Virus record (IMG/VR): IMGVR_UViG_3300011116_000108
Span: 1 to 20,048 of that record
Source: a virus
DNA: 20,048 bases
Reading direction: 5' to 3' (one strand)
The translations under genes and the position numbers were made by a program. Shown piece by piece: positions 2,208-6,433 of the stretch. The stretch's first letter is position 1. Each line of letters starts with the position of its first letter. The notes below the pieces were generated by a model. The model did no database searches, was not told where the DNA came from, and saw nothing but the letters and a program-made list of their open reading frames with translations.

Positions 2208-4400
2208 ATGGCGACGATGAAGCAAGACCCGACGGGCATCTCTGGCGCTGGCAAGGTGTCGGCTCGCGGAGGCCCAGATCAGAAGGATCACCGCGATACC
2301 TTGCAGATGATGCGGGATCGTCTGCGTCAGGCTATTGGCGCGTACTCCGAGTCGCGTGAGGACGAGTTAGACGACCTGCGCTTTATGGCAGGCTCGCCCG
2401 ACAACCAGTGGCAGTGGCCGCAGGACGTGCTGGCTACTCGCGGTTCGGTGCAAGGTCAGACGGTCAACGCGCGGCCTTGCCTCACGATCAACAAGCTCCC
2501 GCAGCATGTTCGTCAGGTGACGAACGAGCAGCGGCAGAACCGCCCGTCGGGCAAGGTCATCCCCGTCAACGATCAGGCCGACGTTGAAGTGGCCGAGGTG
2601 CTAGACGGCATCGTTCGGCACATTGAATACATGTCAGACGCTGACGTGGCCTACGACACTGCCTGCGAGAATCAGGTGACGTATGGCGAGGGCTACATTC
2701 GCCTTCTGACCGAGTATTGCTACGAAGACAGCTTCGATCAAGACATCAAGATCGCTCGCGTCCGTAACAGCTTTAGCGTCTACATGGACCCGCTGATTCA
2801 AGACCCATGCGGTGCGGACGCTGAATGGTGCTTCATTACCGAAGACCTGATGAAAGAGGAGTACGAGCGTCTGTACCCAGATGCCGCTCCGTTGTCGTCA
2901 ATCATGGCTCAGGGCATTGGCGATCAGGACATTAGCCAGTGGATTACGGACGACACGATCCGTATCGCTGAGTATTTCTATATCGACCATAAAGACGACA
3001 CGCTGTATCTGTTTCCCGGCAACCAGACTGTGTTCAAAGGCTCTCCGCAGGATAAAGCCCTGCGTGACATGGGGCTGCAGCCGCTGCGTGAGCGCAAAGT
3101 TGACCGCAAGCGCGTCATGTGGATGAAGACCAACGGTTTCGAGGTGCTGGAAGAGCGCGAATGGGCCGGTAACTACATCCCCGTGGTGCGTGTAATCGGC
3201 AACGAGTTTCAGGTTGACGGACGTACTTTCATTTCCGGCATCGTGCGTAACGCGAAAGACGCTCAGCGCATGTACAACTACTGGACTTCGCAGGAAGCGG
3301 AAATGCTGGCACTGGCCCCCAAAGCCCCATTCATCGGCTATGGCGGGCAATTTGAAGGCTATGAACTTCAGTGGAAGACCGCCAACACGCAGAATTGGCC
3401 TTATTTGGAGGTCAATCCTGACGTTACGGACGGTTCTGGCAGCGTCCTGCCGCTGCCCCAGCGTGCGGCCCCGCCGCTCCCCCAGACTGGCCTTATCCAA
3501 GCCAAGATGGGCGCTTCTGAGGACATCAAGAACACCACCGGCCAATATGACGCATCACTTGGTCAGGTGTCTAACGAGCGGTCTGGCCGAGCAATTTTGG
3601 CCCGTGAGAAGCAGGCCGACACTGGCACGTATCATTACGTGGACAATCTGGCCCGTGCCGTGCGGTATGTGACCCGTCAGCTTGTGGATTTGATCCCCAA
3701 GATTTACGACACGCAGCGCATCGCCCGAATCATCGGGATTGACGGCGAAACCAACATGGTCAAAATCGACCCCAGCCAGCAAGAGCCGGTCAAGAAGATC
3801 GTCGATCAGGCTGGCGTGGTGATTGAGAAGATTTACAACCCGTCCGTGGGCCGTTACGACGTTGTGGTAACGACTGGCCCGAGCTACATGACCAAGCGTC
3901 AGGAAGCGATGGATGCGATGAGCCAGATTCTGCAGGGCAACCCGAACCTGTGGGCTGTGGCTGGCGACCTGTTTGTCAAAAACATGGACTGGCCGGGCGC
4001 TCAGGAGATGTCGGAGCGCCTTCGTAAGACGATTGATCCGAAGTTGCTGGCCGATCAGGACAATGACCCGGCTCTGCAGGCGGCTCAGAAGCAGATTGAG
4101 GCGATGGCGGGAGAAATGGACGCCATGCACCAGATGCTTATGAACGTGGACAAGTCGATGGAGGCCCGCGAGGCTAAGGTCCGCGAGTTTGAGGCCCAGA
4201 TCAAGGCGTTTGATGCTGAAACAAAGCGTATTTCGGCCACAATGGCCGGTATGTCGATGGAGCAGATTCAAGATATTGTTTTGGGAACAATGGCTGCGGC
4301 TAAAGACACTGGGGATTTGATCCCGCCGCAACAAATGTCCGGCCCATTGGTTCAGGGTAGCGCCCCTGAAACCCCCGTTCCGCCAGAATACATGCGCTAG
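2208..4400 (+). CDS. Portal protein, P22 gp1-like
   Basis: The portal forms the ring at one capsid vertex through which terminase loads DNA and to which the tail attaches. The 730 residues are very near the usual length of P22-type portals (725 in P22). The N-terminal region has the characteristic ARPCLTINKLPQHVRQVTNE stretch followed by QRQNRPSGKVIPV. The middle holds the clip/stem region with EDIKNTTGQYDASLG and NERSGRAILAREKQADTGTY, typical of this family. The C-terminus, about residues 620-680, is a long Met/Glu/Lys/Gln-rich helix of coiled-coil character, as in the barrel helices of P22 portals, followed by a Pro-rich tail. Its place after terminase is canonical. Family assignment is secure; the visible shadow ORFs on the other strand are ignored. 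Confidence 0.95.
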   Translation: MATMKQDPTGISGAGKVSARGGPDQKDHRDTLQMMRDRLRQAIGAYSESREDELDDLRFMAGSPDNQWQWPQDVLATRGSVQGQTVNARPCLTINKLPQHVRQVTNEQRQNRPSGKVIPVNDQADVEVAEVLDGIVRHIEYMSDADVAYDTACENQVTYGEGYIRLLTEYCYEDSFDQDIKIARVRNSFSVYMDPLIQDPCGADAEWCFITEDLMKEEYERLYPDAAPLSSIMAQGIGDQDISQWITDDTIRIAEYFYIDHKDDTLYLFPGNQTVFKGSPQDKALRDMGLQPLRERKVDRKRVMWMKTNGFEVLEEREWAGNYIPVVRVIGNEFQVDGRTFISGIVRNAKDAQRMYNYWTSQEAEMLALAPKAPFIGYGGQFEGYELQWKTANTQNWPYLEVNPDVTDGSGSVLPLPQRAAPPLPQTGLIQAKMGASEDIKNTTGQYDASLGQVSNERSGRAILAREKQADTGTYHYVDNLARAVRYVTRQLVDLIPKIYDTQRIARIIGIDGETNMVKIDPSQQEPVKKIVDQAGVVIEKIYNPSVGRYDVVVTTGPSYMTKRQEAMDAMSQILQGNPNLWAVAGDLFVKNMDWPGAQEMSERLRKTIDPKLLADQDNDPALQAAQKQIEAMAGEMDAMHQMLMNVDKSMEAREAKVREFEAQIKAFDAETKRISATMAGMSMEQIQDIVLGTMAAAKDTGDLIPPQQMSGPLVQGSAPETPVPPEYMR

Positions 4401-4425
4401 AATATCGGTACTCAGGAGTTAATGA

Positions 4426-4788
4426 ATGAAACCGGCAGAATTTGTAGGCATGTTGTTTCTGGCCCGTGATGTGGCCCATAGCGTGCATCTAAACACCCGC
4501 AGCTATGCTAAACACAAGGCTCTACAGAAGTTTTACGAGGAAATTGTAGACCTTGCGGACAGTTTTGCTGAAGCGTATCAGGGCAAACATGGGCTTATTG
4601 GCCCTATTTCGCTTATGAACGCCAACAAAACGACCAATATTGTTGAGTTCTTGCAAGATCAGGTCGATGGTATTGAAAATGCTCGATATGAAGTTTGCAA
4701 GGAATCCGAAACGGCGCTGCAGAACATCATCGACGAGATTGTTGGCCTGTATCTCAGCACACTCTACAAACTTCGCTTTTTGGCGTGA
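4426..4788 (+). CDS. Dps/ferritin-like small helical protein
   Basis: 120 residues, with AGGAG (4414-4418) upstream. The whole protein looks helical, without membrane segments. The stretch from Ala17 to Gly53 resembles the ferroxidase-bearing part of Dps: H18, H30, D45 and E49 have exactly the spacing (12, 15, 4) of E. coli Dps H51, H63, D78 and E82. Alternatively HLNTR (21-25) pairs with Dps HWNMR if a loop is three residues shorter. Dps D67 is replaced by Gln34. Conserved phage proteins of this kind exist, mostly as domains of unknown function, and I believe this is one of them. Dps proteins oxidise and store iron and protect DNA; whether this one does so is inference. Its location between portal and fibre genes suggests late expression. 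Cys91 is the only Cys. Confidence 0.6.
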   Translation: MKPAEFVGMLFLARDVAHSVHLNTRSYAKHKALQKFYEEIVDLADSFAEAYQGKHGLIGPISLMNANKTTNIVEFLQDQVDGIENARYEVCKESETALQNIIDEIVGLYLSTLYKLRFLA

Positions 4789-4799
4789 AAGGAATAAGC

Positions 4800-5102
4800 A
4801 TGGAACTGTTGAAACCTCTTAGTAAGGCTGATTTTGCGGCCCAGACGGCCTCTTATACGGGTACGGCTGGCAACACAACCGGCTGGAACGCTGGCCCGCA
4901 GGGCGTTCTGGTATGGTCGGATCAGGCGTGCTATGTGGAAGTTGGTGAAAACGCCGTAGCCACAACGGCCAGTACGCCCATTCCTGCTAACACTCCGGTG
5001 CCGTTTGCGGTCCCACTGACCGTTTCTGGCGTCTGGCGCGTGAGCGCAATTCAGGTATCTTCGGGCGGCACAATCTACACCAAGCCTCTTAATAAACAAT
5101 GA
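4800..5102 (+). CDS. Small virion-type beta protein
   Basis: 100 residues starting at ATG 4800, seven bases after an AAAGGA. Upstream in-frame starts lie inside the previous gene and are rejected. The sequence is Thr/Ala/Gly/Val-rich and beta-like: QGVLVWSDQACYVEVGENAV, then a Pro-rich turn (STPIPANTPVPFAVP), then GVWRVSAIQVSSGGTIYTKP. This pattern, an isolated beta-sandwich with a conserved WRVSAIQ strand, is familiar from small structural proteins in podovirus-like phages that have no settled function. Overlap with the next start (ATGA) suggests coupled expression. Candidate roles are a capsid decoration or tail-attachment component; this cannot be decided from sequence. Confidence 0.65.
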   Translation: MELLKPLSKADFAAQTASYTGTAGNTTGWNAGPQGVLVWSDQACYVEVGENAVATTASTPIPANTPVPFAVPLTVSGVWRVSAIQVSSGGTIYTKPLNKQ

Positions 5103-5338
5103 GCTATTTTGGCGTAGGGTTGCGTAATGCGGTGTCCCTTGGGCTAGGCGGGGTCATCTCATTAAAATCTAATGTAACGGGGGCTTCGCCGCCTGACCCC
5201 GGCCCACCGTGGATTGTGCTTAACTCTACGGGGACTGACTACATCTGTACTAATCAAGTATTAGCTTCTACGGGCGTCATTTATTCAGTTGTATCGCCTG
5301 TATTGAGCAGCACTGGCACTAGTTACAACCCGATTTAA
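5099..5338 (+). CDS. 79-residue protein with a 14-residue Ser-Thr-Gly repeat
   Basis: The start overlaps the previous stop by four bases. The N-terminus, MSYFGVGLRNAVSLGLGGVI, is a glycine-rich hydrophobic segment of a kind common at the start of small phage structural proteins. After a Pro-rich hinge (PPDPGPPW, residues 31-38) come three copies of an S-T-G-T/V-x-Y unit beginning at Ser43, Ser57 and Ser71, exactly 14 residues apart, with the last copy cut short by the C-terminus. The repeat suggests a small repeating beta fold, as in fibres. Function unknown; its position just before the fibre gene suggests a virion surface protein. Confidence 0.6.
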   Translation: MSYFGVGLRNAVSLGLGGVISLKSNVTGASPPDPGPPWIVLNSTGTDYICTNQVLASTGVIYSVVSPVLSSTGTSYNPI

Positions 5339-5347
5339 GGTATTACA

Positions 5348-6433
5348 ATGGCTAATTATCAAGTCCTTTCGTTAGATACGGCCACTCCGCAGATTAAAGC
5401 GCCGGGCACGGGTAATGGGTACAGTTTTGACTCAGGGGCTACCAATCTAGGCACTTGGACAACTTCAGCGTTAAATTTGTCAACGCCGTTGACTTTAACA
5501 ACAGCGTTAGCAAGTAGTAGTGGCGGCACGGGCCTGACCGGCTTTACCGCAAACGGCGTTGTATACGCAAGCAGCAGTTCGGCTCTGACCACTGGGAGCG
5601 CGCTGACGTTTGATGGGACGAATTTAGTAACTACTCGACTATTGGCTGGTCGGCCAACCCCTGACGCTAACAACTGGGCTGTTCAGACATACGCTACGTC
5701 TGCTTATGCTTCTGGTATGTCGTTTACTTACGGCGGCGTCGGCGCTGCTGCGATGTGGGTGCCCGCCGGAAATGCGTTGGCGTTTGGCGCTGACGGAGCC
5801 AGCGGCACTACAGAGCTGATGCGGGTTAATAACACAGGGCTGGGCATCGGGACAAGTTCGCCTGCTGCGAAGCTAGATGTTGCGGGAAGCGCTAACTTAG
5901 GCGCCGCCGGTACAGACACCGTTACATTAACAGGTCAAGTGTCTGCAAACAGCAGCGTTGGTTCTGCGGGTCAAGTTCTCACTAGCCAAGGCGCTAATTT
6001 ATCTCCTAAATGGACTACTATATCTGGTGGTCTAACACTGATCACAACGCTAGTCCCGACAGCTGGTGCTTCATCCGTAACACTGACAAATATCTCGTCG
6101 TATAAATCGCTTTTAATAATGACGGATAGCGGAGTCGCACTATCTTCCGCCGTTACGTTAAGAATTGCCTTGAGTTCAGACAACGGAAGTACATACGGCA
6201 GTGTGACGGCATTTACAAGCGCCAACGCAACAAATCCTTATGGATACATACAGTTTTTTAGAACAGACAATTCATCATCAAACAAACCTTACTTTACTAT
6301 AACTGGTTCATCTACGGCATCGTATGCAAGAGTTGCATCCCCAACTGGCACAGTAAATGCGCTGGAAATAACACCAAACAGCGGGGCAACATTTAGTGGT
6401 GGCGGCAATATTTTTGTGTATGGGATAAACTAA
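5348..6433 (+). CDS. Tail fibre-like protein
   Basis: 361 residues; TAAGGT lies about 7 bases before the start. Composition is Ser/Thr/Gly/Ala-rich with almost no charged residues, as in trimeric phage fibres. The middle holds GGTGLTGFTANGVVYASSSS (residues 59-78) and GIGTSSPAAKLDVAG (166-180), both standard fibre repeat motifs; the second often precedes a C-terminal chaperone domain, but none is present here. The C-terminal 130 residues (from about LITTLVPTAG, 231) look like a separate beta-sandwich of a type found at the tips of other fibres, which would be the receptor-binding part. The C-terminal half is distinctly A/T-rich compared with portal or coat, suggesting recent exchange. Probable host recognition; the exact ligand is unknown. 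Confidence 0.8.
   Translation: MANYQVLSLDTATPQIKAPGTGNGYSFDSGATNLGTWTTSALNLSTPLTLTTALASSSGGTGLTGFTANGVVYASSSSALTTGSALTFDGTNLVTTRLLAGRPTPDANNWAVQTYATSAYASGMSFTYGGVGAAAMWVPAGNALAFGADGASGTTELMRVNNTGLGIGTSSPAAKLDVAGSANLGAAGTDTVTLTGQVSANSSVGSAGQVLTSQGANLSPKWTTISGGLTLITTLVPTAGASSVTLTNISSYKSLLIMTDSGVALSSAVTLRIALSSDNGSTYGSVTAFTSANATNPYGYIQFFRTDNSSSNKPYFTITGSSTASYARVASPTGTVNALEITPNSGATFSGGGNIFVYGIN

Follow-up and report, generated by a model that had tools for sequence, protein, structure and literature searches.

What would a Dps-like protein be doing next to the portal gene of a phage? In bacteria, Dps stores iron and protects DNA. The question is raised by a reading frame of 120 residues in the window, i.e. 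the whole stretch of 20,048 nucleotides of the virus record IMGVR_UViG_3300011116_000108 that was analysed here. Four residues of the encoded protein, H18, H30, D45 and E49, were originally predicted to reproduce the spacing of the E. coli Dps ferroxidase ligands H51, H63, D78 and E82. We examine the family, the predicted fold and the ligand positions of this protein, and compare it with Dps and with its phage homologues. We will argue that a Dps-type fold and a Dps ligand set are supported, with one histidine different from the one first assigned.

Gene and Family

The features of the locus are collected in Table 1. The reading frame had been delimited correctly, in coordinates, length and start alike. 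The window contains terminase, scaffold, major head protein, head-closure and portal genes, which identifies a late head region, from a phage with P22-like head genes. No tRNA or Rfam features were found in it.

Table 1. Coordinates of the gene, its neighbours and the codons at Dps ligand positions in the window.
Feature	Position	Strand	Basis
DUF5856 / PHROG 858 gene, predicted Dps-like mini-ferritin of 120 aa	4426..4788	+	Pfam, PHROG, family profile, predicted structure
AGGAG, putative ribosome-binding site, 7 bases 5' of ATG 4426	4414..4418	+	sequence
Portal protein gene, immediate upstream neighbour, stop at 4400	2208..4400	+	PHROG 156, E 2e-129
Downstream ORF without PHROG match; similar sequence in 39/80 close loci	4800..5102	+	
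H18 codon, originally equated with Dps H51; H in 60/66, off the Dps ligand position	4477..4479	+	profile alignment, conservation
H21 codon, counterpart of E. coli Dps H51, invariant	4486..4488	+	profile alignment, conservation
H30 codon, counterpart of Dps H63, invariant	4513..4515	+	profile alignment, conservation
Q34 codon, counterpart of Dps D67, variable	4525..4527	+	conservation
D45 codon, counterpart of Dps D78, invariant	4558..4560	+	profile alignment, conservation
E49 codon, counterpart of Dps E82, invariant	4570..4572	+	profile alignment, conservation

The claimed place next to the portal gene is borne out by the relatives. MW202483 (70%) and OR003940 (68%), the nearest relatives among named records, have the gene directly 3' of the portal gene. 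The latter is present in all 80 close environmental relatives, and in 79 of them no more than about 80 bases separate its end from the Dps-like gene, which follows it directly. In the one exception (locus L023, 1695-3004), two additional reading frames of 329 and 107 amino acids lie between the two genes. On the downstream side, the ORFs at 4800-5102, 5099-5338 and 5348-6433 have no PHROG match, and similar sequences occur in 39, 8 and 3 of the 80 close loci, respectively, some of these loci being truncated.

The window protein belongs to DUF5856 (PF19174), with a Pfam E-value of 1.3e-23 and a score of 84.2 bits (curated cut-off 34.6 bits) over model positions 1-94 of 94, and it matches PHROG 858 with E 1.3e-27. 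In the databases the former is labelled as of unknown function and the latter as a starvation-inducible transcriptional regulator. All 44 family members searched match DUF5856, and no Ferritin model appears among the 25 of 30 Pfam families listed at E 0.1. For the window protein, NCBIfam gave a sub-threshold match only, and PADLOC gave none. By tblastn the family was found in 1,427 phage records, mostly of enterobacterial phages; among the matches listed, T4-like and Ackermannviridae genomes stand out. No bacterial or archaeal relative, and thus no host copy, turned up when patterns drawn from the window protein were run over 84,980 species genomes, a search that distant relatives would escape.

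Among the members of this family are T4 rI.-1 (mobD.6), Sajous1 gp217 and LIMEstone1 ORF78. The window protein matches the family over its full length and falls in the same length class, and it has the family's invariant H21, H30, D45 and E49. The gene contexts differ, however: the gene follows the portal gene here and rI in T4-like phages, and it is near the DNA primase gene in Ackermannviridae. T4-like members also have an N-terminal extension, whereas the window protein has none.

Predicted Fold

A structure prediction and comparison with Dps had been proposed as a check; the predicted fold is that of a four-helix ferritin, with Dps as the nearest match. The AlphaFold2 model, calculated with an alignment of 44 sequences, has a mean pLDDT of 94.4 and a pTM of 0.88, with helices at residues 3-23, 27-55, 72-90 and 96-118. 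With VIA-align, Dps chains ranked first (M. smegmatis Dps2: Z 14.4, rmsd 2.4, 119 residues; E. coli Dps: Z 13.3, rmsd 2.4, 117 residues), and all 50 matches listed are ferritin-like. Z values below about 13 can be ordinary among helical bundles, and the sequence evidence therefore matters. With Foldseek against the PDB, no E-value was below 0.001 (best 0.08), the top rows being nearly all Dps or bacterioferritin.

When the family profile was searched against all PDB sequences, Helicobacter NAP came first with E 4e-5, and eight Dps-family sequences were below 1e-3, as was the designed helical protein 2jua at 1.5e-4. The profile is needed for this detection; single-sequence phmmer against the PDB gave just E 0.07 to HP-NAP. 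Taken with the model, these searches support a Dps/ferritin-type four-helix fold for the window protein.

Several other viral proteins came up in BFVD. Matches named Dps or DpsA are weaker, with E-values of 1.6e-3 and above. The bundle was also matched by A0A6J7WIS1 and A0A6J7XDU5, named prohead protease (432 and 333 amino acids; TM 0.70 and 0.78), and by a 713-residue protein named NUDIX hydrolase, all of which could possibly be fusions of a Dps-like domain. The same fold is seen in two uncharacterised proteins, A0A481ZC29 of Pithovirus LCPAC404 (TM 0.70) and A0A7D3V608 of Fadolivirus (TM 0.84).

Ligand Positions

The exact Dps spacing originally claimed is only in part what it seemed to be. 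The residues H18, H30, D45 and E49 are in place, and the ungapped pattern H-x11-H-x14-D-x3-E occurs a single time across the six frames of the window, but H18 is not the counterpart of H51. When the family profile is aligned to Helicobacter NAP and Deinococcus Dps2, H21 falls on the ligand histidine, with a gap of three residues in the A-B loop. The spacing counted from H18 is thus coincidental, because this loop is three residues shorter than in Dps. In members with a longer loop, such as L092 (HFGVTGPGSYAKH) and L227 (HLRVSGRGSFAKH), the Dps H-x11-H spacing is found when counted from the second histidine. Conservation agrees, H21 being present in 66 of 66 members and H18 in 60, with R, K or Q in the other six. 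A direct reading of H18 as Dps H51 is therefore rejected, given both the profile alignment and the conservation. The assignments of H30, D45 and E49 to H63, D78 and E82 were confirmed by the profile alignment, and the glutamine said to replace D67 is at the claimed position.

In 66 diverse members, entropy is lowest in the four columns H21, H30, D45 and E49, each invariant (66/66); these counts are somewhat inflated, since peptide patterns, some of them covering H21, H30, A32, L33, Y37, D45 or E49, had been used to collect the 44-sequence set. Among 23 members sampled by tblastn alone, a set that contains a few close relatives, six columns are invariant, namely H21, H30, D45, E49, Y114 and L116. 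The probability that six randomly placed invariant columns include all four ligands is about 2e-6. Judging from sequence geometry, one face of helix B carries H30, Q34, D45 and E49, as in Dps. As far as residue identity goes, the Dps ligand set holds for this protein, with H21 replacing H18.

The fifth position behaves differently. D67 of Dps belongs to the second iron position, and the corresponding residue 34 is variable in the 66 members (G 35, N 8, Q 6, D 6, E 6, R 4, A 1). This freedom to vary suggests stricter conservation of one metal position than of the second, which may be weakened in the family.

Comparison with Dps

E. coli Dps, M. smegmatis Dps2 and Helicobacter NAP have the four-helix fold in common with the model of the window protein over 117-119 residues, and four of the five ferroxidase ligands are identical at aligned positions. 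The differences lie in the size and in the periphery. Besides the shorter A-B loop and the change of D67 to Q, the window protein is some 45 residues shorter than E. coli Dps and has no tails, its helices extending from residue 3 to residue 118. It is acidic (pI 5.5), and no BC helix is predicted, i.e. none between residues 55 and 72. In Dps, which forms a dodecameric cage, the BC helix is at the dimer interface. A basic DNA-binding tail is present in E. coli Dps, although not in all Dps.

With neither tails nor a predicted BC helix, and with its acidic pI, the protein is not expected to coat DNA as Dps does. DNA protection, suggested originally as one possible function, is consequently not indicated in the form of a coating, and coating in the manner of E. 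coli Dps is unlikely. Dps-like proteins of the ferritin superfamily have been described in other phages, namely Gratiaviridae, Lactobacillus phages and, as DpsA, crAss-like phages (PMC8008677), and it is at the superfamily level that the window protein can be likened to them.

Virion Association in Relatives

We now consider the suggestion of a virion function, which finds support in two distant relatives. In LIMEstone1, ORF78 was among the virion proteins identified by mass spectrometry, with a mass of 13.15 kDa and a coverage of 28.21% (PMC3296691). The protein encoded at this locus in the LIMEstone1 record is a homologue of 117 residues and 13,149 Da, and 33 of its 117 residues would give 28.21%; the agreement in mass and coverage identifies ORF78 as a family member found in virions. 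The homologous locus of Sajous1 is annotated as gp217, a protein 40% identical to the one in the window. It was detected by mass spectrometry in CsCl-purified virions and recognised as a ferritin by Phyre2 (PMC10892097), so that the ferritin reading of DUF5856 is already published for this one clade. The few peptides in the virions of these relatives may be carry-over. LIMEstone1 ORF78-82 (L096, 6137-9012) form a small cluster in which the Ackermannviridae homologue is accompanied by uncharacterised virion proteins and putative late promoters.

The N-termini of some members provide a further lead. Several T4-like and large-phage members open with MKFSDF, MKFNEF, MRKFSDF or similar, and RB9 internal proteins begin with MKTFKEF or MKTYQEF. 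The extension of the T4-like and some of the large-phage members can be summarised as M-[KR]-F-[SN]-[DE]-F. In T4, such N-termini target proteins to the head (PMC9026906). The resemblance of the family motif to these capsid-targeting sequences is offered as a lead only. The variants MKFSDF, MRKFSDF, MKKFSEI and MKRFSDF were seen in L087 (2962-3348), L092 (1453-1851), L206 (2336-2887), L207 (2285-2878) and L195 (1765-2232). After the motif, L206 has INE and L195 has LNE, which resemble prohead-protease sites.

Alternative Explanations

The protein could be a ferritin-fold intracellular regulator, as T4 rI.-1 might be in the rI operon, modulating the timing of lysis and perhaps sensing metal or redox state, and neither a ferroxidase nor part of the virion. 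The T4-like homologue does adjoin rI in RB9, ECD7, Aes508, Gravdalen and others, its over-expression slightly delayed the collapse of lysis inhibition in T4 (review PMC6832632), and the name of PHROG 858 is that of a regulator. However, the T4 effect was obtained by over-expression from a plasmid, and RaK2 has a homologue while T holin, RI, RI.1 and RIII are absent (PMC3622015). Considering also that the window gene follows the portal gene amid head genes and that two relatives' proteins were detected in virions, we regard a regulator as unlikely. Some laboratory stocks of T4 have a frameshift in rI.-1 (PMC8573959), which shows the gene to be dispensable there. Among the papers searched, none mentioned both rI.-1 and Dps. 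An iron carrier borne by the virion, which would aid adsorption via the iron-uptake receptors of the host, is very unlikely. This "ferrojan horse" role was put forward by the Sajous1 authors for gp217 after its detection in virions, but Vi01-like phages, among which Sajous1 has the homologue, showed normal infection of Salmonella tonB and feoB mutants, so that the tested host gave no sign of TonB or FeoB dependence (PMC10892097). The conserved neighbour in the present case is, moreover, the portal gene, which encodes a head protein, and not a tail fibre gene.

Two further options concern the meaning of the fold itself. A structural relic, i.e. a ferritin-fold protein reused in the head or connector with its metal function gone, had been allowed for originally and would fit the location among head genes and the loss of an acidic residue at the D67 position in most members. 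For the family it is nevertheless improbable, because the ligand columns are the four most conserved among the 66 diverse members, whose overall identity goes down to 20-40%. A chance likeness of a short helical protein to Dps is hardly credible: the coincidental H18-based spacing and the score of the de novo protein 2jua can be cited in its favour, but sequence profile, fold and ligand invariance agree with each other and strongly disfavour it.

Proposed Role and Implications

The explanation that we consider fairly probable is that the gene encodes a minimal Dps-type metal-binding ferritin of the DUF5856 family, which would handle iron at the virion or at the head under assembly. Its basis is the predicted fold, the relationship to Dps by sequence profile, and the invariance of H21, H30, D45 and E49; we infer the metal, the oligomer, the oxidation and the presence in the virion of this phage. 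Two subunits would pair as in Dps, with iron or a metal like it bound at the dimer interface between H21 and H30 of one subunit and D45 and E49 of the other. Synthesis would take place late, together with the head proteins, and the product would probably associate with the virion, or with the head during its assembly, and would bind or oxidise ferrous iron. As the outcome, reactive iron would be kept off the phage DNA, or the bound metal would be carried with the particle.

A wider and more doubtful version, which we put forward tentatively, is that a capsid-packaged mini-ferritin is common to P22-like, Ackermannviridae, T4-like and jumbo phages, T4 rI.-1 included, and that, entering or travelling with the genome, it controls the iron around this genome.

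The DUF5856 family is carried by more than 1,400 sequenced phages, among them relatives of T4. A Dps-type ferritin with invariant ligands would give T4 rI.-1 and the Ackermannviridae virion proteins a function that can be tested, and this reading bears on the proposal of iron in tailed phage particles.
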